From Ectothiorhodospira sp. BSL-9 (GTDB lineage Bacteria > Pseudomonadota > Gammaproteobacteria > Ectothiorhodospirales > Ectothiorhodospiraceae): DNA of 64,000 nt. The first letter of the stretch is position 1, and each line of letters opens with the position of its first letter. Under the pieces are notes generated by a model that ran no database searches, had not been told where the DNA came from, and saw nothing but the letters and a program-made list of their open reading frames with translations. The translations under genes and the position numbers were made by a program. The DNA is taken from the NCBI RefSeq assembly GCF_001632845.1, contig NZ_CP011994.1, positions 434,001-498,000 on the forward strand, written 5' to 3'. Of this stretch, positions 42,639-61,650 are shown piece after piece.

Positions 42639-43665
42639 GATCGACCACGTCAGCGTGGGCTACGACGGTACCAACGTCGTCCACGATGTCACCCTGAACC
42701 TGAACACCGGCGTCATTGGCTGCCTGCTGGGCCCCAGCGGCTGCGGCAAGACCACGTTGCTGCGCTCCATTGCCGGCTTCGAGCCCATCAGTGACGGCCA
42801 GATCCGGCTTGATGGCCAGGAGGTGAGTCGCCCGGGCCGCACCCAGCCGCCGGAGCGTCGCCAGGTGGGCATGGTCTTCCAGGATTTCGCCCTGTTCCCG
42901 CACCTCACCGTGGCCGAGAACATCGCCTTTGGCATCCGCGGCCAAACGGCTGCCCAGCGCCGTCAGCGGGTCACGGAACTGCTGGGCCTGATCTCCATGG
43001 ACGGCTATGGTGAGGCCTACCCCCACGCCCTTTCCGGCGGGCAGCAGCAGCGCATCGCCGTCGCCCGGGCCATGGCGCCTCGCCCCCGCGTGCTGCTGCT
43101 GGATGAGCCCTTCTCCAACATGGATGTGGAACTGCGCGAGGGCCTGGCCCGGGAGGTCAGGGCCATCCTCAAGCAGGAGGAAATCACCGCCATGCTGGTC
43201 ACCCATGACCAGAACGAGGCCTTTGCCTTCGCCGACCGCATCGCCGTGATCCACGCCGGCCGGGTGCTGCAGTGGGACACCGCCTACAACCTTTACCACA
43301 AGCCTCAGGACCGTTTCGTGGCCGACTTCATCGGCCAGGGCCGCATGCTCCCCGGCCAGGTGCTCAGCGAGCACGAGGTGAAGACGGAACTGGGCACCAT
43401 CACCGGCAATGTCCCCCAGAACTGCAGCCCCGGGGCCCCGGTGGATGTCCTGGTCAGACCCGACGACATCATGCCCGATGACGACAGCGAGGTTTTCGGG
43501 GAGGTGATGGACAAGGCCTTTCGTGGCGCCAGCTTCTTGTACAACCTGCGACTGGGCAGCGGCACCCGGGTGCTGTGCCTGACCCCCTCCCATTACAACT
43601 TCGCCCTGGGGGAACGCATCCCCCTCAAACTGGGCTTCAATCACCTGGTCATCTTCCCCCGCTGA
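42622..43665 (+). CDS. fbpC: Ferric iron ABC transporter, ATP-binding protein
   Basis: This 347-residue ABC ATPase shows Walker A GPSGCGKTTLLRSI, Q-loop VFQDFALFPH, signature LSGGQQQRIAVARAM, Walker B VLLLDEPFSNMD and switch LVTHDQNEA. A C-terminal TOBE-type domain with VDVLVRPDDIMPDD follows. It powers the FbpB permease. Its stop overlaps the end of the converging vgrG-like gene by 17 bases. Confidence 0.95.
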   Translation: MTRLLEIDHVSVGYDGTNVVHDVTLNLNTGVIGCLLGPSGCGKTTLLRSIAGFEPISDGQIRLDGQEVSRPGRTQPPERRQVGMVFQDFALFPHLTVAENIAFGIRGQTAAQRRQRVTELLGLISMDGYGEAYPHALSGGQQQRIAVARAMAPRPRVLLLDEPFSNMDVELREGLAREVRAILKQEEITAMLVTHDQNEAFAFADRIAVIHAGRVLQWDTAYNLYHKPQDRFVADFIGQGRMLPGQVLSEHEVKTELGTITGNVPQNCSPGAPVDVLVRPDDIMPDDDSEVFGEVMDKAFRGASFLYNLRLGSGTRVLCLTPSHYNFALGERIPLKLGFNHLVIFPR

Positions 43666-45757
43666 GGTGATGCTCCACCCGGCCCCGCAGGTGCACGGCC
43701 GGACCCGCCAGATGGATGGCACGCCCATGGAGGATCACCACACCACGGGCCGGCAACAGGGTGATCCCCGCCTCGGGGGTGCCGATGACGATGGGGTGCC
43801 CACCGCGGGATCGGATATGCAGATCCCGGTCTGCCCACAGGGACACGTCCCCTTCCACCTGCCAGCGGCCGTCACCCGCGACCACCTCCAGGACCACCCG
43901 GTCACCGCTGGAGAGGTTCAACCCTCGGGCGGCCGATGCCTGCAGCCCTCCTTCACTGACCATGGCCACGTGTCGACGGGCGCGCCCACGCCAGTCAGCC
44001 GCAGCCCCATGGAGACATGGTCCCGCGACCTGAACCGAGGACTCGCCGGCCACGCGCTCGTGTCGATCGCCGCCGGCCCGCGCATCCAGGTCACCGCCGC
44101 AGCGGATGTGCAGGCAACCACCGGTGGTGGCGATCAGCGCCCCCTGGCGGCAGATCAGGGACAGCGTGGCCGCATCCGCGTGGGCATCCAGGGCCAGCAG
44201 GTGCTGCTCGTCGCGGGTGAACAGCCTCAGTAGCGCCCTCCCCTCCCGATCGTCCATCAGCAGGGTGTGACCGCCGGCACTGCGGTAGCGGTTCGCCGTG
44301 TCATCCCGGGCGTTCACCGGATTGGCATGAGCCCCATCGAACCCGGCTCCGGCGATCACTGCAAAACCATCCGGATCACCGCCCAGGATCATCAGGCTCA
44401 CGGGTTGACCGGGATGCAGCGGCGCATGCCAGCCACTGGCCTGCCCGTCCTGCCCGGGTGGAGCGGCATAAGGGGTCAGGCGCGCCCAGCGGGGCCCCCT
44501 GTCAGGCTCCATGAGGCCCGCATCCTCGAACAGGCCACGGGCCCGCTGGCGCCCGGCCTCATCCTGATCCGGGCCATTCAATCCCTGAATCCGGGCCTGC
44601 AGCATATCCGGCACCGCCCCGTGACGACGAGGCTCGGCGGGTCGATAGGAGGCATCACCAGGGCACAGCCGTACCCGATTGCGATAGGCCCATCGACCCG
44701 ATGCATCGGAGTGCACCCGATGCAGCACGGACTCCACACGCCAGACCCCCGAGGGGACTGAGGGGTGGTCCGGTGCAGATATCCGCACCCGCTCACCGGG
44801 CTCCAGATCCGGCACCGTGGTCTCCAGCAACAATGTGCGAGCCCGACAGGCCTCGCGCTGAGCCAGGAAACGTGCACGCCATTCCAGGCTTCGGCTGTCA
44901 TGCAGCCCCCAGCCCGGATGATCTTGAATCCCTTCGCCATGCCCGGTGTCTGCCAAGGTCTCGCAGGGCCGGCCATCTGCCAGCCGGCCCCGCACGCGTA
45001 TCTGTCGGCAGACCTGGCGATGATGCTCCCGGGCACTCAGAACCCCCGGGGCTCGATCCCCCCAACCACGGGAGGGTCCCAGCCAGTCCAGCACCCGGGG
45101 CTCGCTGGCATCCATGCCATCTGCCAGTCGCAGCGTCTCCATGCCCTCGACCGCGGCCAGCCGTGTGTGGATCCCGGCCCGGGCCAGCACCCGGAAGAGC
45201 AGATCGGCGTCACTCTCGTCCGCCTGCAGGATGGCCCCGCGACGCGGGTGATCCAGGGTGAGATGCCCGGCGTCCACCGCCACCCCCAGCGGTTCCAGCA
45301 GTTCACGGGCGAGGTCCACCGCATCCAGGCCGGTGAACAGGCGGGTGTGGCGATGCAGGGTCAGTCCCGCCAGGCGGCTGCGCAGGGACAGGCGCCAGCG
45401 TCGCCCCACATCCTCAGCCATACCACTGGGGCGACAGGCCATCAGGATGCCCTGCCAGTCACGCACAGGGCCGGGTGCGGCAGACAGCATCAAACGGGCC
45501 GATGACCCCAGACGCTCCAGACAGGCCGGCCCGGAGTGGATCACATCCACCTCCATGCGGGTGATACGGGACAGCCCCTCGCGCAGCCGCAGGGCCACGA
45601 CGGGCAGATCCAGGCCGCCCAGGGTCAGGCGCAAGGTCAGGCCCGGGGCAACCCGGGATGAACGGGCGTGATGGGGGTGTTTGATGGGCACATCCATGGG
45701 CATCGAAGGGCTTCCCTGGTCCGTGGGATAAGGCATGAACATATCACCGCCGGGCAT
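43649..45757 (-). CDS. Stand-alone VgrG-like type VI secretion tip protein
   Basis: This protein of up to 702 residues has the VgrG layout. A gp27-like part (about 40-370) is recognisable from RDWQGILMACRPSGMAEDVG and QADESDADLLFRVLARAGIH. A gp5-like OB region ends in LGGDPDGFAVIAGAGFDGAH (about 470-490). A C-terminal repetitive strand region follows. The OB segment is shorter and less conserved than in canonical VgrG. An ATG at 45736 has a better ribosome site (GGTGA). No Hcp, PAAR, effector or other T6SS gene is adjacent, so it is an orphan; a phage-tail relative is an alternative. Confidence 0.75.
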   Translation of the reverse strand: MPGGDMFMPYPTDQGSPSMPMDVPIKHPHHARSSRVAPGLTLRLTLGGLDLPVVALRLREGLSRITRMEVDVIHSGPACLERLGSSARLMLSAAPGPVRDWQGILMACRPSGMAEDVGRRWRLSLRSRLAGLTLHRHTRLFTGLDAVDLARELLEPLGVAVDAGHLTLDHPRRGAILQADESDADLLFRVLARAGIHTRLAAVEGMETLRLADGMDASEPRVLDWLGPSRGWGDRAPGVLSAREHHRQVCRQIRVRGRLADGRPCETLADTGHGEGIQDHPGWGLHDSRSLEWRARFLAQREACRARTLLLETTVPDLEPGERVRISAPDHPSVPSGVWRVESVLHRVHSDASGRWAYRNRVRLCPGDASYRPAEPRRHGAVPDMLQARIQGLNGPDQDEAGRQRARGLFEDAGLMEPDRGPRWARLTPYAAPPGQDGQASGWHAPLHPGQPVSLMILGGDPDGFAVIAGAGFDGAHANPVNARDDTANRYRSAGGHTLLMDDREGRALLRLFTRDEQHLLALDAHADAATLSLICRQGALIATTGGCLHIRCGGDLDARAGGDRHERVAGESSVQVAGPCLHGAAADWRGRARRHVAMVSEGGLQASAARGLNLSSGDRVVLEVVAGDGRWQVEGDVSLWADRDLHIRSRGGHPIVIGTPEAGITLLPARGVVILHGRAIHLAGPAVHLRGRVEHHLSGGR

Positions 45758-46817: not shown

Positions 46818-48599
46818 ATGACACCCGCCCTCACCCCTGAATTCTCCATCCATCCTTCGCGGCGTTCACGTCCCAGGATCCGGCTGACGGCGTCGTTGGC
46901 GGGAGTCCTCCTGCTCTTAATGATGTCGAGTGCGTGGGGCAACCCCAGGGTGGAAATCACCGGCGGCGACAGCGAGATTCGGGATAACATTCGCGCCCAC
47001 CTGGGGCTTGCCCGCGAAGGCTGTGACCTGCCCCCCTGGCGGGAACGCCCGCTGGTGAGGGCGGCCCGGGAGGATGCCCGCAACGCCCTGCGGGCCCTGG
47101 GCTATTACAGCCCCCAGATGGACATCGATTTCCAACGCATCGACGACTGCTGGCGACTGAATGTCCAGGTGGACCCGGGTCCGCCGGTACGCATCCGTTC
47201 CATGGATGTGGCCTTGAGCGGCGCCGCCAATGAGGATTCTGCCTTCCAGGAATACCTGCGCGAGCTGCCCCTGCGTGAAGGCCAGCGCCTGCGCCACAAC
47301 CAGTACGAGCAGATCAAGGGCGGCCTGAACCGACTGGCCTCATCCCGTGGTTATTTTGATGCCCGCTTCACCACCACCCAGATCCGGGTCCAGGTCAGCG
47401 AGCAGGCCGCCGACGTGGTGGTGCACATGGACAGCGGCCCGCGTTACCGCTTTGGTCCGGTCAGTCTGGAGCAGGACATCCTCCACGATGAACTGGCCCA
47501 GAAATTCGTTCCCTTCCAGCAGGGGAGCGACTTTGAGAGTCGACGCCTGATCCAGATGCAGCAGGCGTTCATCGACAGCGGTTATTTCTCCGATGTGCGC
47601 GTGGATACCCACCCGGAGGATGCCGAGGATCTGGAAATACCCATCACGGCCACCCTGGGCGCCCGCAACAAATGGTCCTATCTGGCCGGCGTGGGGGTGA
47701 GCACGGATATCGGCCCCCGGCTGCGTCTGGGCCTGGAAAATCACCGAGCCAATCTATCCGGGCACCGCTACGGCGCAGATCTGGAACTGTCACCGGTGCG
47801 TTCCAGTATCGGCCTCAACTATCAGATCCCCCTGGGGGACCCGGCCCGGGAACGACTGGATCTCACCGCCGGGTATCAGACCGAAAGCACCGACACCGCC
47901 GACGGGGATCTGTTCACCGTGGGCGTGGCCCACATCCAGCAAAGACCCTCGGGCTGGACCCATACCCGATTCCTGCGCTACGAGCACGAGGATTACAAGA
48001 TCTCCGATACCCGGGGCACCTCAAGGCTGTTGACCCCCGGCCTGGAATGGTCCCGTATCCAGGCGGATCACCCCATCTTCCCGCGCCAGGGCTGGCGCCT
48101 GAGCGCCAACGTACGCGGCGCATCCGAAGATCTGCTCTCCACCGTCACCTTCGGCCAGGCCACGGGTCGGGCCAAGCTGATCACGCCCCTGGGCCAGGGG
48201 CGCCTGCTCACCCGGGCAGATGCCGGCACCACGGCAGTGGATGAATTTGCCGAGCTGCCCAGCTCCGTGCGGTTCTTCGCCGGCGGCGACAACAGCGTGC
48301 GCGGCTACGGTTACCAAAAGCTGGGGCCCACCAATGATGACGGCGAGGTGATCGGTGGACGGCATTTCATCACCGGTAGCGTGGAGGCCGAGTATCCCAT
48401 CATCGGTCAATGGAGTGGCGCCGTCTTCGTGGACGGCGGTAATGCCTTCGAGCGCCTGGATGACTACAACGCCAAGTACGGCGTCGGGGCCGGCGTGCGC
48501 TGGCGCTCGCCCATCGGGCCGATCCGGGTGGATATCGCCCATCCCACCGATGGCGATGACAGCTTCCGGCTGCACCTGACCATGGGGATGGATCTGTGA
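46818..48599 (+). CDS. tamA: Translocation and assembly module outer-membrane protein TamA
   Basis: This 593-residue Omp85-family protein has a signal segment (LTASLAGVLLLLMMSSAWG), three POTRA domains starting PRVEITGGDSEIRDN, and a C-terminal 16-strand barrel. The barrel contains FFAGGDNSVRGYGYQKLGP (the Omp85 lid-lock region) and ends with FRLHLTMGMDL. With TamB it inserts autotransporters and other proteins and supports lipid transport to the outer membrane. It overlaps tamB by four bases (GTGA). BamA is excluded by length and POTRA number. Confidence 0.95.
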   Translation: MTPALTPEFSIHPSRRSRPRIRLTASLAGVLLLLMMSSAWGNPRVEITGGDSEIRDNIRAHLGLAREGCDLPPWRERPLVRAAREDARNALRALGYYSPQMDIDFQRIDDCWRLNVQVDPGPPVRIRSMDVALSGAANEDSAFQEYLRELPLREGQRLRHNQYEQIKGGLNRLASSRGYFDARFTTTQIRVQVSEQAADVVVHMDSGPRYRFGPVSLEQDILHDELAQKFVPFQQGSDFESRRLIQMQQAFIDSGYFSDVRVDTHPEDAEDLEIPITATLGARNKWSYLAGVGVSTDIGPRLRLGLENHRANLSGHRYGADLELSPVRSSIGLNYQIPLGDPARERLDLTAGYQTESTDTADGDLFTVGVAHIQQRPSGWTHTRFLRYEHEDYKISDTRGTSRLLTPGLEWSRIQADHPIFPRQGWRLSANVRGASEDLLSTVTFGQATGRAKLITPLGQGRLLTRADAGTTAVDEFAELPSSVRFFAGGDNSVRGYGYQKLGPTNDDGEVIGGRHFITGSVEAEYPIIGQWSGAVFVDGGNAFERLDDYNAKYGVGAGVRWRSPIGPIRVDIAHPTDGDDSFRLHLTMGMDL

Positions 48600-51500
48600 T
48601 ACGCCGCGTCCTGATCAGCCTTGTCGTGATGCTGTTGCTGCTGGTGGTCCTGGTCACCGGCCTGGTGACGGCCCTGGTGGCCACCGAACCCGGCGCCCGC
48701 CTGGTGGTGAAGCAGGGCGTGGGCTTTGTGCCGGGGGAACTGCGCATCGAACAGGTGAGCGGCACCCTGCTCACCGGCCTGCGGGCCGGGGGGGTGGTCT
48801 ATACCCACGAGGCCCTGACCGCCACCCTGGAAAGTCTCGACCTGCAGATGGAACTGCTGCCACTGGCAGGCTTGGCGGTGCATATCAATGCACTGGATGC
48901 CCAGGGCCTGGATCTCATTCTCACGCCGGATCCCGACGCGCCACCGTCGGATCCGGACGCGCCCTTCACCCTGCCCGATGCCATTCCCATGCCGGTCACG
49001 GTGGATCTGACCCAGGCGGTGATTCAGAACATCCGCTTTCGCACCCAGGAGCAGGCCGAACCGATCCTCGTGGACGCGGTGCGCCTGAGCCTGCATCTGG
49101 ATGCCGAGCGTGCCCTGATCCGTGATCTGGACGTCCAGACGCCCGACATCCAGGTCCGGGCCTCCGGCCGCGCGGCCCTGGCCCAACCTTACCCTCTTGC
49201 CCTGTCGCTGGACTGGCAGCTGGATCTGCCCGAGGCCGCCCTGGAGCTCTTCCCGGACGAACCCGCCCACGGGCGACTGGCCCTGGAGGGGGACCTGGGC
49301 AGCCTGGCGATCCATCACCGGCTGCTGGGCCCGGTGTCCCTGCTCAGCGCCGGTCGCATCGATCAACCGATCACCGATCTCCATCTTGACCTGACCCACC
49401 AGTGGGAACCCTTCGAGCTGGATCTGGCACCCGAACAGCGCCTGTCCGTGGCCTCGGGCACCCTGACCACACAGGGTGGCCTGGAGGCCTATGAACTGGG
49501 CCTGCGCACAGCCCTGCAGGTCACCGACCTGCCCGCCCTGAACCTGGCGCTCACCGCCGATGGGAACCTGGAATCCCTGAATCTGGCCCCCTTGTCCGTC
49601 AGCAGTCCGGCCGGCAACCTGGAAGTGGCCGGTCGCCTGGGCTGGGTCGACGATCCGGACTGGGCGCTGCAAGTCCGTGGCCGGGACCTGAATCCCGCCG
49701 AGTTCGTGGCGGACCTGACCGGTCGCCTCAACCTGGACCTGCATACCCGGGGGCGTCTGGATCCGGAACAGGGGGTGGTGGCCCAGGTGGACCTGCAACG
49801 CCTGGCGGGTCAACTGCGTGACTATCCCGTGACTGGCCAGGGTCAGGTGGCCATCGCCGGTAACACCCTTAACATCCCCGGGCTGAGACTGGGGGTGGGT
49901 GATAATCGCCTGAGCACCCGCGGTCAGGTGAGCGACACCCTGGCGCTGGACTTTGACCTCAACGCCCCGGACCTGCCTGCCCTGTGGCCAGGACTGGAAG
50001 GCAGGGTGATCGCCAGCGGACAGGTGAGCGGTCCCCTGGAGGCCCCGGTGGTCTCCGCCCGGGCAGACATCCGCGACCTGGGCCTGGGGAATCTCTCCCT
50101 GGCTCGACTGGATCTGGACCTGGAGGCCGGGGTGAGCCCCGACAGCCCCATGCGCCTGGACCTGGAAGCTCGCGACCTGCGGCTTGGTCAGGATCTGGAA
50201 CTGACCAGCCTCAGCCTGCAGGGTCGCGGCACAGCGCAGGCCCATGAGATCAACCTGGACCTGGAGGCGGATCAGGGTCAACTGGGTCTCACCCTGGACG
50301 GCGCCCTGGACGAGGGGCCCGCCTGGGCGGGCCAGCTCACCCGCCTGGACCTGGATCAGCCCCAGGCAGGTACCTGGCAACTGGAAACCGCCGTGGGCCT
50401 CAATGCTTCCCCCCAGGCGGCAGGCCTGGAGGACAGCCTCTGCCTGATACAGAACCAGGGCCGCCTGTGCCTGGACGGCAACTGGTCGGCCGAGGCGGGC
50501 GCCTCGGCCGACCTGCAACTGACCGATCTCTCCCTGCAGATTCTGAATCCCTTCCTGCCCCCCAACCTGCGCGTTGATGGCTCGCTCGGGGCCACGGCCA
50601 GGCTGCGCCTGGACGATCAGCTATGGCTTGAGGCGCGGGTGCAACCCAGCGCTGGCGAGATCCGCCTGCGGGACCTGGATGACGAGGAACACATCATTCC
50701 CTACCAGGACGGGCAGGTGGATCTACTCGTTGAGGACCGGGACATCACCGCCCGCCTGGCGCTGGGCTTTCTGGAGGGCGGTCAGGTGGATGGCCGACTG
50801 GATGCCCGTCAACGGGACGATGGCGACCTGGACCTGGACGGCGACGTCCAGGTGGCCCTGGACGAATTCCGCTGGCTGATGCCGCTGGTTCCCCAGGTGA
50901 CTGACCCCGGCGGGCGCCTGCGGGTGGACCTGACCGTGGGCGGCACCGCGGCAGATCCCCGCATCGAGGGCCTGTTGACCCTCACCGAAGGCACGGCCTT
51001 CATCACCGAGGCGGGCATCACCGTGGAGGCCCTGAACCTGGAACTGCGCAACGAGGGTCTGGAACGCCTGGTGTTCGAGGGTGACATGCGCTCCGGTCCC
51101 GGCACCCTGGAGGTGGACGGCGAGGTGCAACTGGACGGCGAAGACATGCCCATCATCATCAACGTGCGTGGGGATCGTTTCCAGGCCGTGCGCCGTCCCG
51201 ATGTGCAGGCCCTGGTCAGCCCGGATCTGCGCATCACCCTCATCGGGCAGCGGGCCATCGTCACCGGTCAGGTGGAGATTCCCGAGGCACGGGTGGAACT
51301 GGTGGAACTGCCGCCCCAGGCGGTGTCCGTCTCCCGGGACGAGCTGATCCTGGATGACGGGGAAGAGGCGGGTGAGGCCCTGGTGGTGATCGCCCGGGTG
51401 CGGATCATCCTGGGAGATGATGTGCGCATCAGCGGCTACGGCCTTGACGCCCGCCTGACCGGCGACATCGCCGTGCAGGACTCGCCGGGCAGACCCACGC

Positions 51501-52093
51501 GACTGGTGGGCGAAGTGCGTGTGGCTGAAGGGCGCTACAAGGCCTATGGACAGGATCTCACCGTGGAACGGGGCATCATCGTATTCCAGGGCCCGCCGGA
51601 GAACCCGGGGCTGAACATACGGGCCTCCCGACGCGTGCCCGCCTACGACGTGGTCGTGGGGCTGGAGATCGGCGGCACTCTGGAAGAGCCTCGCTCCCGG
51701 GTCTTCTCGGAGCCTTCCATGGAGGACAGCGATGCGCTGGCCTTCCTGGTGACGGGTCGCCCCCTGTCGGGCGCTGGCGAGGGAGAGGCCACCGACATCG
51801 TGGCGGCGGTGGCCATGTTCGGCATCGAAAGGGGCGGCTTCATCACCGACCGCATTGGCCAGGAGGTGGGCCTGGACGAGTTTACCGTGGACACGGGCAC
51901 CGAACTGGAGGACTCGGCCCTGATGATGGGCAAATACCTCTCGCCGCGCCTGTTCCTGCGCTACAGCGTGGGCCTGTTCGATCGGGTGAATACCGTCATG
52001 CTGCGTTACCAGCTCACCCGCACCCTGAGCCTTGAGACCCGGTCCAGCAGCGAGGCCCAGAGCATGGACCTGCTCTACCGGCGGGAGCGTTGA
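48596..52093 (+). CDS. tamB: Translocation and assembly module inner-membrane protein TamB
   Basis: This 1165-residue AsmA-like/DUF490 protein has one N-terminal membrane anchor (ISLVVMLLLLVVLVTGLVTALVA). A very long beta-rich periplasmic part of repeated D/L-rich strands (LDLQMELLPLAGLAVHINAL and the like) follows, then the conserved C-terminal TamB domain with LRYQLTRTLSLETRSSSEAQ. It spans the periplasm and works with TamA; YhdP-like lipid-bridge roles are also proposed. Its GTG start is coupled to tamA. Confidence 0.95.
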   Translation: MIRRVLISLVVMLLLLVVLVTGLVTALVATEPGARLVVKQGVGFVPGELRIEQVSGTLLTGLRAGGVVYTHEALTATLESLDLQMELLPLAGLAVHINALDAQGLDLILTPDPDAPPSDPDAPFTLPDAIPMPVTVDLTQAVIQNIRFRTQEQAEPILVDAVRLSLHLDAERALIRDLDVQTPDIQVRASGRAALAQPYPLALSLDWQLDLPEAALELFPDEPAHGRLALEGDLGSLAIHHRLLGPVSLLSAGRIDQPITDLHLDLTHQWEPFELDLAPEQRLSVASGTLTTQGGLEAYELGLRTALQVTDLPALNLALTADGNLESLNLAPLSVSSPAGNLEVAGRLGWVDDPDWALQVRGRDLNPAEFVADLTGRLNLDLHTRGRLDPEQGVVAQVDLQRLAGQLRDYPVTGQGQVAIAGNTLNIPGLRLGVGDNRLSTRGQVSDTLALDFDLNAPDLPALWPGLEGRVIASGQVSGPLEAPVVSARADIRDLGLGNLSLARLDLDLEAGVSPDSPMRLDLEARDLRLGQDLELTSLSLQGRGTAQAHEINLDLEADQGQLGLTLDGALDEGPAWAGQLTRLDLDQPQAGTWQLETAVGLNASPQAAGLEDSLCLIQNQGRLCLDGNWSAEAGASADLQLTDLSLQILNPFLPPNLRVDGSLGATARLRLDDQLWLEARVQPSAGEIRLRDLDDEEHIIPYQDGQVDLLVEDRDITARLALGFLEGGQVDGRLDARQRDDGDLDLDGDVQVALDEFRWLMPLVPQVTDPGGRLRVDLTVGGTAADPRIEGLLTLTEGTAFITEAGITVEALNLELRNEGLERLVFEGDMRSGPGTLEVDGEVQLDGEDMPIIINVRGDRFQAVRRPDVQALVSPDLRITLIGQRAIVTGQVEIPEARVELVELPPQAVSVSRDELILDDGEEAGEALVVIARVRIILGDDVRISGYGLDARLTGDIAVQDSPGRPTRLVGEVRVAEGRYKAYGQDLTVERGIIVFQGPPENPGLNIRASRRVPAYDVVVGLEIGGTLEEPRSRVFSEPSMEDSDALAFLVTGRPLSGAGEGEATDIVAAVAMFGIERGGFITDRIGQEVGLDEFTVDTGTELEDSALMMGKYLSPRLFLRYSVGLFDRVNTVMLRYQLTRTLSLETRSSSEAQSMDLLYRRER

Positions 52094-55724: not shown

Positions 55725-57095
55725 ATGGATTCAGGTGCCCTAAAAGCACACCGACTTCTTTGGGTGGACCTCTCGGAACACCCAGAACCACCTGATCTGA
55801 CGAATTCCTGGGAGATCCTGGTGGTCTCCTGCCTCGCCGAGGCGGAAGCAATCCTCAGGGACCCCAGCGTCATGATAGGCGTCTTCCCGCTCAAGCATGA
55901 CTTGCTGAGCCAGTTGCCCACCCTCGAGCGTTTCCTGCAACAGCATGGAACCCGGGAGTGGATTGCACTGGTGGAACCGGAACTGCTCTGGGACCCGCGT
56001 GTTCGCGAGATCCTGCGCCACTGGTGCTACGACTTCCACTCCCTCCCGGTGGATACCTATCGCCTGGAGGTGGTGCTGGGGCATGCCTTCGGCATGGCTG
56101 AGCTGCTCATGCACTCCGGCATGCACTGCAACTCCCTCGATCAGCAGGATCCTCTCACCGGCGAGAGCCCCCCCATGGATCAGGTCCGCCGCACCATCTG
56201 CAAGGTGGCCCGCGTCGCCGCGCCGGTGCTGATCACCGGCGAGAGTGGCACCGGCAAGGAGCTGGCGGCCCGCGCCGTGCATGACGCCTCCCCCCGGGCG
56301 GGCCGACCCTTCGAGGCCATCAATTGCGCCGCCGTGCCGTCCGCACTCATTCAGTCGGAACTCTTTGGCCACGAGCGTGGGGCCTTCACCGGCGCCCATC
56401 GCACCCGGGGTGGCCGGGTGCAGTCTGCCCATGGCGGCACCCTGTTCCTGGATGAGATCGGTGACCTGCCCCTGGAGGTACAGGCCTCATTGCTCAGATT
56501 CCTGCAGAATCAGACGGTGCAGAAGGTGGGTAGCGACCATGAAGAGAAGGTCGATGTGCGCGTCGTGGCCGCGACCCATGTCAACCTCACGGAGGCAGTG
56601 AAGGAAGGTCGATTCCGGGAGGACCTGTTCTATCGCCTGGATGTCCTGCACTTCGAGATGCCCCCCCTGCGGGAACGGGACGGGGATGGCGTATTGCTGG
56701 CTCATCACTTCTTCCAGGCCTTCGCCCGCGACCGCAGCGCCCGCGTGAAGGGTTTCAGTGCGTCCGCCCTGGAAGCCATCCGCCAGCACCACTGGCCCGG
56801 CAATGTCCGGGAGCTGATCAATCGCGTGCGGCGTGCCATGGTGCTGTGCGAGAACCGATTCATCCAGCCCGAGGATCTGGGGCTCGAGGACGCCCTGGAG
56901 AACACCCTCCCCCAGGCCTCCCTGGAGGAGGTACGGGCAGAGGCAGAGCGCACTGCCATTGTCCGCGCCCTGCGGGCCTGCGAGGGCAACGTCTCTGCGG
57001 CTGCCCGCCGCCTGAATGTCTCGCGCATCACACTCTACCGGCTGGCTCGACGCCACGAAATCCCCCTGCAGGGGCAAACGGCAGTCAAGAGCTAG
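55725..57095 (+). CDS. Sigma-54-dependent activator with VpsR-like N-terminal domain
   Basis: This 456-residue AAA+ activator has an N-terminal domain (1-130) resembling the degenerate receiver of VpsR. At the usual phospho-aspartate strand it reads [13 protein letters not shown], so no acceptor Asp is visible there. The central AAA+ domain has Walker A GESGTGKE near 172, the sigma-54 contact loop GAFTGA near 221 and Walker [14 protein letters not shown]. The C-terminal Fis-type HTH is [20 protein letters not shown]. It is followed by the FapF-like gene, and a sigma-54 promoter match lies before the repeat-protein gene, so it probably controls this locus. VpsR relatives bind cyclic di-GMP, which is plausible here. 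Confidence 0.9.
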
Positions 57096-57187: not shown

Positions 57188-58246
57188 ATGAGATTCACCC
57201 GCAAACACCTGGCAATTGCCTGCTCCACTCTGCCACTGCTGCTGACTCACGCAGCCTGGGCCCAGGAACAGCCGCCAGAAGAGGTGGGTGAGAGGCCACC
57301 CCAGGAAGAGGCCCAGCCGGACGTGGCGGCGGTGTTCCAGGAGCGTGGCCTGCTCACACCCAAGGGGGGCTGGGTGGTGGAGCCCTCCCTTCAGTATGTG
57401 CACAGCTCATCCACCACGGTGGCCATTGACGGGTTCACCATCCTGCCGGCCATTGCCATCGGACTGATCGACCTGACCGAAGTCCAAAGGGACACCCTCA
57501 CCGCGGCGCTATCCTTCCGCTATGGCCTGTCCAATCGCATGGAAGTGGGTATCCGCATACCGTATGTCTGGCGGGATGAGTCGCTACGTCGTCGAGAAGT
57601 CCTGGTGGGCACTTCTGGCGATCAGGTCACCGGCTCGGACGGGCAAGGCCTGGGGGACATCGAATTGGCCGTGCATTATCAATTCAATCGGGCCGTGACG
57701 GGCAGGCCCTTCTTTATCGGCAACCTGCGCGTGAAAGCACCCACGGGCACTTCCCCGTTCGACGTGGATCGCGAACTTATCGAAGATGATGATACCGGGC
57801 GCCCCATCACGGAGATATTCATTGAACAGCCCACCGGCTCGGGCTTCTGGGCCATCCAGCCCAGCCTCACCATGACCTATCCCACCGACCCGGCGGTGAT
57901 TTACGGCAATATCAGCTACCTCTGGAACATCGAACGGGATGTGGGCGATGGGATCGGCAAGATCAACCCGGGCGACGCCCTGGGCATCAGCGTGGGCACA
58001 GGCATTGCCCTGAACAATCAAACCTCCATCAGCCTGGGCTACGACCACAGCATGGTATTCAAGACCAAGTATGAAAATGCCCCGCCGCTGGACCCTTCCT
58101 TTGACCGCATCCAGGTGGGAAGCTTCCTATGGGGTTTATCACACCGCTTTTCCCCACGGACCAGCATGAACCTGTCGGTAGGCATCGGGGCCACCTCGGC
58201 CGCCCCGGACACCCAGGTCACACTGCGCATTCCCATGCGGTTCTGA
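57188..58246 (+). CDS. FapF-like outer-membrane beta-barrel (amyloid export pore candidate)
   Basis: This 352-residue precursor has a signal peptide (FTRKHLAIACSTLPLLLTHAAWA), a Pro/Glu-rich linker and then AVFQERGLLTPKGGWVVEPS. A run of amphipathic strands follows, ending in aromatic MRF, as expected for an outer-membrane barrel. The GLLTPKGGWVVEPSLQY segment and the gene context resemble the FapF/phenol_MetA_deg-like transporters next to Fap amyloid genes. The start at 57188 has GGAG nine bases upstream. It lies 92 bases after the activator gene and converges with the minus-strand operon. Other porin roles remain possible. Confidence 0.75.
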   Translation: MRFTRKHLAIACSTLPLLLTHAAWAQEQPPEEVGERPPQEEAQPDVAAVFQERGLLTPKGGWVVEPSLQYVHSSSTTVAIDGFTILPAIAIGLIDLTEVQRDTLTAALSFRYGLSNRMEVGIRIPYVWRDESLRRREVLVGTSGDQVTGSDGQGLGDIELAVHYQFNRAVTGRPFFIGNLRVKAPTGTSPFDVDRELIEDDDTGRPITEIFIEQPTGSGFWAIQPSLTMTYPTDPAVIYGNISYLWNIERDVGDGIGKINPGDALGISVGTGIALNNQTSISLGYDHSMVFKTKYENAPPLDPSFDRIQVGSFLWGLSHRFSPRTSMNLSVGIGATSAAPDTQVTLRIPMRF

Positions 58247-58265: not shown

Positions 58266-58838
58266 TCAGTAGCCCCTCAACCCCTGAATCATCTGCGCAT
58301 CCATGACGCGCCGCATGTCCATGCGGTTGAGGTTCATGCCCGACAGGTCCACGTTCAGGGTCGTCTGGTTACTGATGATCTGGTCGCTGACCTGGTTTTG
58401 CACAATCGAGGTCCAGTTCGAACCGGACAGTGCCTGAACGGTCAGGCCATCCAGGGCATTCTGGATGTGGATACCGCCTGCGGCCACCCTGGGACGCAGA
58501 CCCGAGTGATCCATGATCACCGTATGGGCCACCACTTCCCCATTGATGGCGGTGGTGCGCTCGATCCCCAGCGCCAGTTCAAAGCCATCACGGCGGATCA
58601 GCCCGCCCCGCTGCTCCGCCAGCTCATGGTCCGGCACCAGCGCCCAGTCCATCATCGCCATCGGGTCGGAGCCATCGACAGCAAACCCGATGCCCACGGT
58701 TTCAGGCCATTCACCCAGGGCCGGCGACATCACCACCAGTAGTCCCAGGCCCACCACAGCCCCACGCAGGAATGCCCGGGACGAACGGCACACCGTCTTT
58801 TTCAGTGCGTCGTTTGGGAATTCAGATAGCGGTTTCAT
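58266..58838 (-). CDS. Secreted protein with double-glycine motif, FapA-like position (function unknown)
   Basis: This 190-residue protein has a basic N-terminus and a membrane or signal segment (FLRGAVVGLGLLVVMSPALG). After it comes PDHELAEQRGGLIRRDG, which fits the leader pattern ELxxxxGG cut by C39 peptidases (Gly-Gly at about 78-79 from this start). It is followed by FELALGIERTTAINGEVVAH. The C-terminal half has IVQNQVSDQIISNQTTLNVD, an Asn/Gln-rich strand pattern like that of the other secreted proteins here. An in-frame GTG four codons upstream is an alternative start. It directly follows the C39 gene. I do not recognise a named family. Confidence 0.72.
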   Translation of the reverse strand: MKPLSEFPNDALKKTVCRSSRAFLRGAVVGLGLLVVMSPALGEWPETVGIGFAVDGSDPMAMMDWALVPDHELAEQRGGLIRRDGFELALGIERTTAINGEVVAHTVIMDHSGLRPRVAAGGIHIQNALDGLTVQALSGSNWTSIVQNQVSDQIISNQTTLNVDLSGMNLNRMDMRRVMDAQMIQGLRGY

Positions 58839-58855: not shown

Positions 58856-59587
58856 CTACCAGTCAGAATGACGTGGCAGGGCCAGGAGAAAATCCGCCAG
58901 CCCGTCACGCGCCAGGGCTGTGCCATAAGGGGGAGTCGTCAGCGCCTCCCAGGTCACCGGAGCATTGAAATATTCCCGCCCAAGGTCCAGGCGGTCACGA
59001 ATCAGAAAAAGGATATCGTTACTGCGAATATCCTCGAACTCGGCCCGACTGTAATCCTTCACCCCCAGGGCGGGGTCACCCACCAGAACGCGGTCGCCCT
59101 TGATGCCCTTGACCACGACGAAATGGCGATAGCCCTCGATATCCACCAGGGCGATGGCGGGTATGCCCAGTTCCTCGAGTTTTTCCAGCGGGATTCGAAA
59201 ACCATCCGAAGCAAGGCCCTGGGTCGCCAGGTAACGCTTCATGTCCAGCATGGAAAAACCCTGCTGCCGGATACGCGCCTGATCGCCCATCTCGTACATG
59301 AGGTCAAATGTTTCCCGCTCCCGGGTGGGGCGACCATAGTGATAAGTCAGCACCGTGGCCAGCGCGGCCGATCCACAACTGAAATCATACTGCTGACGCA
59401 CCACCCTCTTGAAACGCATGCCTTGCAGGCTGGTCACCGACATCTCGTGGGTACCCATGGCACCCGGGATGTGCACCATGCCCGATGTCAGGCCGGTATG
59501 CGGCATGGCCAGTGCCAGCGCGCCCAGCGTCAATGCCATCAGGCCCGCATGGGCACACCTGGAACCTCTCTTGCCGGCGACCTTCAT
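58856..59587 (-). CDS. C39-family cysteine peptidase, FapD-like
   Basis: This 243-residue precursor has a signal segment (HAGLMALTLGALALAMPHTG) and then a peptidase C39 domain. The catalytic cysteine is in QQYDFSCGSAALATVLTYHY and the catalytic histidine in GYRHFVVVKGIKGDRVLVGD, with DP as the usual third element. Unlike bacteriocin exporters it has no ABC or membrane domain, matching periplasmic FapD. I chose the ATG at 59587, which follows the preceding stop by seven bases. It probably processes a protein of this operon; the neighbour at 58266 carries a double-glycine site. Confidence 0.88.
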   Translation of the reverse strand: MKVAGKRGSRCAHAGLMALTLGALALAMPHTGLTSGMVHIPGAMGTHEMSVTSLQGMRFKRVVRQQYDFSCGSAALATVLTYHYGRPTRERETFDLMYEMGDQARIRQQGFSMLDMKRYLATQGLASDGFRIPLEKLEELGIPAIALVDIEGYRHFVVVKGIKGDRVLVGDPALGVKDYSRAEFEDIRSNDILFLIRDRLDLGREYFNAPVTWEALTTPPYGTALARDGLADFLLALPRHSDW

Positions 59588-59594
59588 GACGGAC

Positions 59595-59954
59595 TCACGG
59601 CGCCACATTGACATTGAGAATGAGGGATTCCTGAATGACCACGTTATGACCCGAATTCTGGATCACGGTACTGATGCCCTGAGCGTGATCAAAGGCCCCT
59701 GCCCCCAGCACGTTGTCACCGCTGGCAAAGGCCCCCTGCATCTGGGTATTCGACACTTGAGCGTTGGAGGTCATCTGCCCCAACTGTACCGATGAAATGT
59801 TGTACATGGCCCGCTGATCCTCCAGGGCTTCAGCTGCCACCGCCTCCGGCAGGTCCAGTGAACCCGCCTGAGCCAAAGACGTGCCTGCAAGTAACACCAT
59901 CAAGGCCAGGGGAAAAACCCCCCTTCCCCCTCTACCACCTTGCTTCGCGACCAT
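59595..59954 (-). CDS. Small secreted protein of the amyloid-like operon
   Basis: This 119-residue precursor has a signal peptide (GVFPLALMVLLAGTSLAQAG). The mature part is rich in Asn, Gln, Ser and Ala without cysteine and ends with ISTVIQNSGHNVVIQESLIL. That end matches the C-terminus of the 500-residue repeat protein upstream (ITQVSQNSGTNSLTQQQVSV) in spacing and key residues. The ATG at 59954 follows GGAGG by eight bases. It may be a minor subunit, nucleator or FapE-like component. Confidence 0.78.
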   Translation of the reverse strand: MVAKQGGRGGRGVFPLALMVLLAGTSLAQAGSLDLPEAVAAEALEDQRAMYNISSVQLGQMTSNAQVSNTQMQGAFASGDNVLGAGAFDHAQGISTVIQNSGHNVVIQESLILNVNVAP

Positions 59955-59993
59955 CACCCTTCACCTCCAGGGTTGTGGAGTTGGCCTGAAACC

Positions 59994-60024
59994 GGGGGCA
60001 ACGGGTCGATCGCCCGTTGCCCCC
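59994..60024 (-). promoter_or_regulatory. Strong intercistronic hairpin
   Basis: A perfect 12-bp inverted repeat (59994-60005 with 60013-60024) with a 7-base loop lies between the repeat-protein stop and the next gene of the operon. No T-run follows on the minus strand. It looks like an mRNA-stabilising or partial-termination stem that would let the first gene be expressed above the downstream ones. Confidence 0.7.
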
Positions 60025-60056
60025 GATCACCTCTCAACAGACTTCAGGCATGGGTA

Positions 60057-61559
60057 TTACTGACCCAGGCCCAGGTGTGCCTGCACGGACACTTGCTGCT
60101 GAGTGAGGCTGTTGGTCCCGCTGTTCTGGGACACCTGGGTGATGCCCGCAGAATTGCTCAGGCCACTCTCACCGATGGTGTTATAGGCGGTGTAGGAGGA
60201 GTCCGACTCGATATGCAGGTAGGTATCGGTCACCGCGCCGCTGAGGTCGTTCTCGCTCACCACCATGGAACCGACATTGAAGGAATCGGTGATGCTGTTG
60301 TCGGTGAAGGTGCTGTTGTCGTTATTGCTATTCACGACGTTATTGCTGTCGTTCATGCTGTTGTCGGAGTTATCCGACGAGTCGTTACCGGAATCAGACA
60401 CGGTGGTGTTGCCGGAGTCGGCAATATTCGTGCTGTTGTCGGAGTTGTTGCTGTTATCCGAGTTATCGCTGTTGTCGGAATTATCGTTCAGCGAATCCGT
60501 CCAGGCCATGCTGTTATCGGAGTTGTCGCTGTTATCCGAGTTATTGCTGTTATCGGAGTGATCGCTATTATCCGAATTGTCGTTCAGCGAGTCCGTCCAG
60601 GCCATGCTGTTATCGGAGTTGTCGCTGTTATCGGAATTATCGCTATTATCCGAGTTGTCGTTCATCGAATCCGACCAGGCAAAGTTATTGCTGTTGTCGG
60701 AGTTATTGCTGTTATCCGAGTTGTTGCTGTTATCGGAGGAGTCATTACCAGAATCCGCAACGCTCAGATTCCCCGAGTCATTCACACTGTTATTGGAGTT
60801 ATCGTTCCCGGAATCGGCAACGCTGGTGTTACCGGAATCTGCGATACTGGTGCTGGCGTCAGTCTGGGAATTGTCATTGCCGGAGTCGGCGATGCTGCTG
60901 CTGGAGTCATTCTGGGAGTTGTCATTCCCGGAATCAGCCACGCTCGTGTTGCCAGAGTCAGCAATGCTGGTGCTGGCATCGGTCTGGGAATTGTCGTTAC
61001 CCGAGTCGGCGATACTGGAACTGGTATTTCCGGAATCAGCAACATTGGTGCTGGAATCATTCTGGGAATTGTCATTCCCGGAATCAGCCACGTTGGTGTT
61101 ACCAGAGTCAGCGATGCTGGAGCTGGTGTTGCCGGAATCGGCCACGTTGGTGCTGGAATCATTCTGGGAATTGTCATTCCCGGAGTCGGCCACGTTGGTG
61201 TTACCAGAGTCGGCGATGCTGCTGCTGGCATCATTCTGGGAATTGTCATTTCCAGAATCGGACACGTTCAGGTTACCTGAATCATTCGTGCTGTTATTGG
61301 AACTATCGTTGCCTGAATCCGCCACATTGGTGTTGGCGGAGTCGTTCACGCTGTTGTTGGAACTATCGTTAGCGGAGTCGGTCCAGCTGTTATTGCCTGA
61401 ATCAGCTGTCGAGCTGTTGAATGACTCGGAGGCATTGTAGGAATTCTGATCCCCGAACTCACCTTCGCCGGTGTTGTTCGCGTCTGCCCAAGCGGGGGCG
61501 GACATACCGAAGGCCAGGGCAATTGCAGCGGAGATTGCGGTCTTCTTGAACGTCATCAT
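60057..61559 (-). CDS. Secreted Ser/Asp/Asn-repeat protein, candidate functional amyloid subunit
   Basis: This 500-residue precursor has a signal peptide (KTAISAAIALAFGMSAPAWA). The first repeat zone, about 45-255, is built on ADSGN(T/D) units (about sixteen copies) linked by NDNSQNDSS-type spacers. A second zone, about 255-390, is of SDNSDN stretches with three AW(T/S)DS(L/M)NDNSDNS blocks. The last 80 residues are non-repetitive and end in GITQVSQNSGTNSLTQQQVS. I see no Lys, Arg, Cys or Pro after the signal peptide, so it is strongly acidic. The ATG at 61559 follows AGGAGG. Context suggests a fibre or adhesin; similar C-termini are annotated as adhesins or heme-utilisation proteins, from memory. 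Confidence 0.82.
   Translation of the reverse strand: MMTFKKTAISAAIALAFGMSAPAWADANNTGEGEFGDQNSYNASESFNSSTADSGNNSWTDSANDSSNNSVNDSANTNVADSGNDSSNNSTNDSGNLNVSDSGNDNSQNDASSSIADSGNTNVADSGNDNSQNDSSTNVADSGNTSSSIADSGNTNVADSGNDNSQNDSSTNVADSGNTSSSIADSGNDNSQTDASTSIADSGNTSVADSGNDNSQNDSSSSIADSGNDNSQTDASTSIADSGNTSVADSGNDNSNNSVNDSGNLSVADSGNDSSDNSNNSDNSNNSDNSNNFAWSDSMNDNSDNSDNSDNSDNSDNSMAWTDSLNDNSDNSDHSDNSNNSDNSDNSDNSMAWTDSLNDNSDNSDNSDNSNNSDNSTNIADSGNTTVSDSGNDSSDNSDNSMNDSNNVVNSNNDNSTFTDNSITDSFNVGSMVVSENDLSGAVTDTYLHIESDSSYTAYNTIGESGLSNSAGITQVSQNSGTNSLTQQQVSVQAHLGLGQ
60430..61330. repeat. In-frame minisatellite within the repeat-protein gene
   Basis: Short degenerate units recur throughout on the minus strand, including GATAACTCCGACAACAGC-type and GCCGACTCTGGTAACACC-type words with synonymous variation. 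All units keep the reading frame, so length changes by recombination would preserve the protein. There are no unique spacers of constant size, which excludes CRISPR. Confidence 0.8.
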
Positions 61560-61633: not shown

Positions 61634-61650
61634 TGCAACAAGCAGGCCAA
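61634..61650 (-). promoter_or_regulatory. Candidate sigma-54 promoter of the amyloid-like operon
   Basis: On the minus strand TTGGCCTGCTTGTTGCA matches the -24/-12 consensus TGGCACG-N4-TTGCW, with GG and GC exactly ten bases apart and the -12 box perfect. It lies 75 bases before the ATG of the repeat protein, after a T-run. It fits control by RpoN and the activator at 55725. The remaining intergenic DNA up to the argE start (61930) shows no gene and probably holds the activator site. Confidence 0.7.

Follow-up and report, generated by a model that had tools for sequence, protein, structure and literature searches.

On our analysis, the strongly acidic, repetitive 500-residue protein considered here is probably the main subunit secreted and assembled by a Fap-like export system, a reading to which we assign a probability of about 0.67. 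The gene lies in a 64,000-nucleotide stretch of Ectothiorhodospira sp. BSL-9 (positions 434,001 to 498,000 of NZ_CP011994.1, forward strand; hereafter the window), whose host genome is a single contig of 3.55 Mb. The whole locus is best read as a system for a secreted matrix or fibre that is Fap-like but divergent, its subunits usually having one repeat each and an exchangeable coat, and the sequence comparisons suggest that the amyloid-like part of the subunit is probably its short C-terminal tail rather than the conspicuous repeats. Titles and opening lines of abstracts in the open-licence literature contained no description of such a system from Ectothiorhodospira or Thioalkalivibrio. The features are listed in Table 1.

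Table 1. Features of the subunit locus, in window coordinates
Feature	Position	Strand	Remarks
Predicted sigma-54 -24/-12 site	61634..61650	-	TTGGCCTGCTTGTTGCA; 74 nt upstream of the ATG
Subunit gene, 500 aa	60057..61559	-	ATG at 61559, stop codon ending at 60057; encodes a signal peptide, a low-complexity S/D/N coat and a single Fap-like module at the C-terminus
Sec signal peptide	61485..61559	-	Residues 1-25, MMTFKKTAISAAIALAFGMSAPAWA; assigned by eye
ADSGN zone	60711..61409	-	Residues 51-283, 8-residue period
SDN zone	60426..60710	-	Residues 284-378, three AW(T/S)DS(L/M)NDNSDNS blocks
C-terminal module	60066..60266	-	Residues 432-498; appears distantly related to the Fap repeat
Small secreted protein, 120 aa	59595..59957	-	LEDQRAM (diverged LxxxRGG), one module copy
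Secreted C39 peptidase	58856..59614	-	FapD relative; Cys in DFSCGSAAL
FapE-like protein, 194 aa	58266..58850	-	LAEQRGG at residues 77-83
LAEQRGG	58602..58622	-	Predicted C39 recognition or cleavage motif; [LM]xxxRGG[FLIM] in 34/34 loci
FapF-like outer-membrane beta-barrel	57188..58246	+	Convergent with the operon
Sigma-54 activator	55725..57095	+	VpsR domain, GAFTGA loop

Counted from A25, the subunit chain comprises 476 residues, including 121 Ser, 104 Asn, 74 Asp (16%), 6 Glu and 3 His, so that Asp and Glu total 80; Lys, Arg, Cys and Pro are entirely absent, as the first-pass annotation had observed for the part following the signal peptide, and the computed pI is ~4.05. N-termini resembling the signal peptide are present in relatives. 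The same annotation had described about sixteen ADSGN units followed by SDN runs with three AW(T/S)DS(L/M)NDNSDNS blocks, and this description is accurate: there are exactly 16 ADSGN units together with 2 SDSGN, and the Trp residues of the three blocks are at positions 295, 321, and 353, with a diverged fourth copy, WTDS, whose Trp is at 59. Self-identity of the ADSGN zone at lags of 24, 16, and 8 residues is 0.37, 0.35, and 0.29, above the highest of 300 shuffles (0.26), while in the SDN zone the values at lags of 26 and 3 residues are 0.57 and 0.54 (shuffle maximum 0.42, 300 shuffles). Alignment with the closest relative, L032, over 417 codons gives pS 0.62, pN 0.09, and a dN/dS of ~0.07, a value biased downwards because the alignment of repeats favours identity; the last 75 codons of the subunit give a dN/dS of ~0.065, and both the small protein and the C39 gene ~0.13. 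With that bias in mind, the substitution pattern indicates that the amino acid sequence of the subunit is maintained by selection. A composition free of Lys and Arg is not general even within the genus, as the subunits of L033 and L036 contain 11 and 8 Lys, respectively. On the strand opposite the subunit gene, a 446-aa ORF with Val/Ile/Arg-rich repeats (59940-61280, plus strand) is read as an antisense shadow of the subunit repeat codons.

The neighbouring genes place the subunit within a recognizable export context. Reading away from the subunit, the genes for a small one-module protein, a C39 peptidase, and a FapE-like protein follow on the minus strand, the C39 gene overlapping that of the small protein by 20 nt. 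In the NCBIfam scan, the C39 protein matches FapD (E 2.4e-41, 141.5 bits) and the barrel matches FapF (E 1.4e-41, 142.7 bits), in both cases short of the equivalog cut-offs of 330 and 700 bits; the barrel also matches the solved FapF structure 5o67 (phmmer E 1.2e-31). These cut-offs are strict, since the Fap operon of L132 has a FapC at 206.7 bits (cut-off 195), while its own FapB (90 versus 190) and FapE (80.5 versus 250) fall short, and failing that for FapF is weak evidence because none of the 229 class genomes, true Fap operons included, reaches 700 bits. The window FapE-like protein does not match NCBIfam FapE at E<=1, and no FapA-like family was detected at that threshold among the six window proteins scanned. 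The VpsR domain of the activator scores 54.5 bits against a cut-off of 23.7. By eye, only a short stretch separates the signal peptide of the barrel from the barrel itself; a coiled coil in FapF has been reported to be vital for secretion (PMC6173800). It has been pointed out that FapD- and FapF-type proteins are members of larger families (PMC3792158), and their presence alone is therefore no proof of amyloid export.

To place these genes in a wider context, loci were assembled starting from either the peptidase or the C-terminal module. From the upper part of a list of C39 matches covering 96 relatives, 19 loci were taken, one per genome, and the weaker G056 was added. A module search of the class returned 14 of 369 genomes (12 of 271 genera, E<=0.001), and one of the phylum returned 10 of 398 genomes (8 of 213 genera, E<=1e-5), with several of the phylum matches falling in the small protein rather than in a subunit; all of the new genomes, nine and seven, respectively, were taken, and three genomes were common to both searches. 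Excluded from the counts were L050, which is a true Fap operon, the contig fragments L094-L096, which lack a C39 gene, and L051, a different second locus. The resulting set of 34 consists of 33 relative loci with a C39 region plus the window, and because these loci were chosen for a C39 relative or a module, the counts describe the family and not bacteria at large. Among the nine other genomes of the genus, seven contain the C39 gene at E<=1e-101, while G004 and G006 lack it; a contig scan with patterns derived from one sequence found relatives only in E. marina and E. haloalkaliphila. Within the set, a protein bearing the LxxxRGG-type pattern of Table 1 adjoins the C39 gene at every locus (0/34 on the opposite strand), and the small protein is likewise found in 34/34, its own motif reading [LM]xxxRGG at 9 loci; at 4 loci RG is followed by a different residue, 19 loci, the window among them, have RA, and 2 have SG. 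A barrel relative is present within ~3 kb of the C39 gene on the same stretch in 33/33 relative loci, and an activator relative on the same stretch in 21/33.

The module occupies the last ~67 residues of the subunit and was absent from the first-pass annotation; its consensus includes AGITQVxQNSGxNSLxQQQVSVQA. The profile used here spans 67 positions and was built from 13 segments of ten subunits of the family. A C-terminal copy is present in all 34 subunit genes scored, from 31 loci and with the window included, although much of this uniformity is a matter of selection, because the profile derives from ten of these genes and was itself the means by which L086-L111 were detected. One clear copy is present in 31 of the 34 subunits, with an additional weak one (E 0.066) in L108, while the subunit of L047 and both of those of L090 contain four; scores are weak, at 19-36 bits, in L048, L093, and L107-L111, and none of 41 reversed sequences was matched. 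The tail of the small protein is homologous to the module (hhalign E 5.1e-10, prob 96.6). No solved structure matched the module profile at E<=10.

The rest of the chain varies considerably. Subunit length ranges from 331 to 503 aa across the eight genomes of the genus that have the gene, and the middle of the protein is S/D/N-rich in the genus and family to which the window belongs, as well as in L049, L086, L088, L089, and L093. It is Gly-rich in L048, L092, L107, L108, and L109, and in L047 and L090 three further modules take its place. The first-pass annotation had proposed the ADSGN and SDN zones as two separate functional modules; a modular architecture is upheld, but the better division is between a variable low-complexity coat and the conserved C-terminal module rather than between the two repeat zones. 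L087 carries a tandem pair of different module-bearing subunits, each with a sigma-54-like site upstream, whose composition is between the S/D/N and other types. Three contigs of G409 (L094-L096) encode 177-aa 'TEGALSP' proteins, paired on two of the contigs, and the final segment of these proteins is related to the module; the C39 gene is not in view on these contigs.

Reference Fap operons were obtained through a FapF-family search from which eight loci were fetched, seven of them with Fap repeats and one, L137, with none; L050 also has repeats. Aligned with 36 Fap repeats from eight operons, the module profile gave an hhalign E of 1.9e-5 (prob 77.6, score 26.5), a score equalled by none of 150 column-permuted decoys (best 16.3), and the small-protein profile gave E 4e-4 (prob 34.7, score 21.4; best decoy 16.5). 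A pair of conserved glycines spaced by nine residues can be read in the same register in the module and the Fap repeat. The module profile weakly matched 3/3 true FapB proteins (best E 0.001) and 0/4 FapC proteins, and the best NCBIfam match of the four-module subunits scanned was FapB (E 0.023 and 0.081), which alone is not significant. Taken together, these comparisons moderately support the view that the module and the Fap repeat are distant homologs, while homology of the export genes to the Fap machinery is well supported. The canonical pattern X15GX4NX3GX6NX7, which is the published minimal pattern of the Fap repeat (PMC3792158), occurs three times in 7/7 FapB/FapC proteins used as a positive control but is absent from the window subunit and from 31 of the 33 other subunit genes; the single match in L092 and the two in L108, both of them Gly-rich proteins, are probably due to chance.

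For the FapE-like proteins, five FapE sequences aligned with the RGG proteins at E 5.5e-4 (prob 29.9), with none of 100 decoys scoring as well, and at E 7.2e-6 (prob 84.3) over the first 45 residues, a comparison run without decoys. A related motif, [LM]xxxRG[RK][YF], is found in seven FapE-type proteins from Fap loci, which were picked by that pattern and include the five just mentioned; that of L132 was the one compared with the NCBIfam FapE model, and the pattern recognised no FapE-type protein in the Fap locus of L136. The combined pattern [LM]xxxRG[GRK] is a conserved candidate motif for FapD-type peptidases. The idea that FapE is a FapD substrate is not new, as the literature already suspected it, and only the motif is new: mass spectrometry reported in 2017 suggested complete N-terminal processing of FapE alone, and FapE was suspected to be a FapD substrate (PMC5557850). 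The FapD target was called unclear in that paper, and in 2018 it was still described as awaiting determination (PMC6173800), while a 2025 review names FapE and FapF as presumed targets of FapD (PMC12822426). Secretion of FapC was reported to need the catalytic cysteine of FapD (PMC6173800).

The two systems share a C39 peptidase, a FapF-type barrel, a FapE-like protein with an [LM]xxxRG motif, and secreted subunits with Asn/Gln repeats in a related register and with variable linkers. They differ in that the subunits described here usually have one diverged repeat where Fap has three, reach ~800 aa with an S/D/N or Gly-rich coat, and are accompanied by a small one-module protein located between the subunit and the peptidase, FapA not being recognised; in addition, the Fap order fap(A)BCDEF is replaced by subunit, small protein, C39, and FapE-like protein, with the barrel convergent in the window. 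Because the family departs from Fap in both repeat and gene order, it is not a Fap member, and by these sequence features the window system is outside Fap proper. The Fil system of Acinetobacter also combines a C39 peptidase with a barrel (FilB/FilC), but the window proteins score lower against FilB (128.1 bits, cut-off 475) and FilC (49.7, cut-off 630) than against FapD and FapF, and no other Fil family was detected at E<=1 among the six window proteins scanned. Curli (CsgA/CsgB) is likewise a secreted amyloid with Asn/Gln repeats of similar appearance; however, a curlin repeat was detected neither in the window subunit (E<=1) nor in those of L090 and L047 (E<=10), and membership in curli was rejected. 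The curli secretion machine differs from the Fap-like one.

Structure prediction, which the first-pass annotation had recommended for the mature chain, gave models of low confidence. The AlphaFold model of the window subunit (17 rows, mean pLDDT 39.3) contains two strands at residues 442-463 and no secondary structure in residues 1-441, the repeat zone having a pLDDT of ~34-45, while that of a four-module protein has many strands at a mean pLDDT of 32.6. The sole match of the latter at E<=10 in a fold search of the PDB was FapC (9u4u_A; E 6.4, prob 0.01), which is not significant, and claims about the fold gain nothing from either model.

It is against this background that other explanations have to be weighed. 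The subunit may be a soluble or gel-forming matrix polymer in which the module only guides export through the barrel or serves as an anchor for the chain, while the acidic repeats bind water and cations. The extreme hydrophilicity and charge of the chain, the disordered though low-confidence model, and the single clear module in most subunits fit this explanation, but the distant relation of the module to an amyloid repeat does not, nor do the three subunits with four tandem modules, which would be needless for an export tag; we consider it unlikely, although the least so of the alternatives. It is also conceivable, with a still smaller chance, that the whole S/D/N chain forms a cross-beta or beta-solenoid core, in which each ADSGN period would correspond to a rung, with the module acting only as a cap. 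The regular 8-residue and 3-residue periods, the high Asn content, and the preservation of the sequence by selection are all compatible with such a core, and a FapC linker region has been reported to fibrillate by itself (PMC12822426). However, Asp makes up 16% of the window protein with no basic partner, relatives that keep the module have a Gly-rich or otherwise altered zone in its place, and the repeat zone was modelled without secondary structure. That model lends no support to a beta-solenoid of ADSGN units, although its confidence is too low to weigh heavily against one. The amyloid link suggested in the first-pass annotation finds its support in the gene neighbourhood and the C-terminal module and not in the S/D/N repeats.

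High Asp content and repetition would also suit a calcium-binding RTX-like protein or the stalk of an S-layer protein or adhesin, unrelated to Fap. We regard this as highly improbable, as no RTX or adhesin family, and indeed no family of any kind in Pfam, NCBIfam, or PHROGs, matched the subunit at E<=1, and relatives of FapD, FapE, and FapF adjoin it; RTX identity was rejected on these grounds, and the calcium binding proposed in the first-pass annotation is unsupported because of the same lack of family matches. The other suggestion made there for the acidic repeats, adaptation to salt, is plausible for Ectothiorhodospira.

Returning to the Fap-like export and assembly system as the preferred reading, a working model can be outlined. 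The VpsR-type activator would switch on the unit via the -24/-12 site, which scores 24 of 26 in a home-made weight scheme, a value above anything in 500 shuffles of 400 nt (none >22) and reached by 0.5% of 200 shuffles of 300 nt. A GG-N10-GC site is located 74-98 nt upstream of the gene in 16/16 relatives L032-L047 (genus, family, and G072), and this shared position is stronger evidence for the predicted promoter than the score; that of L039, for instance, is alone not rare (29 of 300 shuffles). Across the family, scores fall in the top 5% of their own shuffles for 27/34 subunit genes, including L049 and L086, which lack the GC, and outside it for 7/34, namely L041 (0.07), L048, L089, both L093 genes, L110, and L111. 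The subunit would then cross the inner membrane by Sec and stay unfolded in the periplasm, possibly aided by its charged low-complexity sequence. The C39 peptidase would cleave the FapE-like protein at LxxxRGG, or at the very least bind it there, and so license export; it may also act on the small protein at the looser motif, LEDQRAM in the window. The subunit would exit through the FapF-like barrel, and outside the cell, the C-terminal modules may stack in a Fap-like cross-beta arrangement, with the small protein perhaps nucleating or capping the assembly and the FapE-like protein perhaps anchoring it. The acidic S/D/N part would remain outside this core as a hydrated, negatively charged coat fitting the saline habitat, and the product would be a biofilm matrix or surface fibre. 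Amyloid formation by the subunit is what we infer from its relationship to Fap, and chains with a single repeat might not suffice to build a stable amyloid. In FapC, cryo-EM has resolved one cross-beta layer per repeat, and the linkers were suggested to be flexible 'fuzzy coats' (PMC12392863); by analogy, the window subunit looks like an extreme of this design of repeat plus coat.

A further proposal, which we put forward tentatively and with somewhat less than even confidence, is that the family constitutes a separate amyloid-export lineage that is sister to Fap, with one usual cross-beta repeat, an exchangeable coat, and LxxxRGG marking the C39 cut. A 2025 GTDB-wide analysis concluded that Fap has become fixed in evolution, three being the almost invariable number of repeats in FapB and FapC, and its screen required homologs of the FapB/C repeat near other fap genes (PMC12822426). 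If the sister lineage is real, surveys starting from the canonical repeat would miss it. Since the family uses one to four diverged modules while keeping D-, E-, and F-like functions, repeat number and coat would be far freer than thought, and the natural series of coats would permit tests of linker effects on fibre properties. The novelty is limited by a 2018 report that noted FapD-FapF gene pairs in five additional phyla (PMC6173800).

Several minor observations were made along the way. The host genome contains a second locus, L051 (~3400.9-3406.3 kb), with a C39 gene (39% identity), a FapF-like barrel (138.6 bits), and three further secreted-looking ORFs; by eye, the N-terminus of this barrel looks like a coiled coil, the locus as a whole looks Fil- or Fap-like, and transposase-like ORFs are close by. 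One relative's genome, G092, has seven C39 peptidase matches. Elsewhere in the window, again by eye, neighbouring genes at 46818-52093 (plus strand) resemble TamA and TamB, and a 702-aa ORF at 43649-45757 (minus strand) is VgrG-like in appearance.
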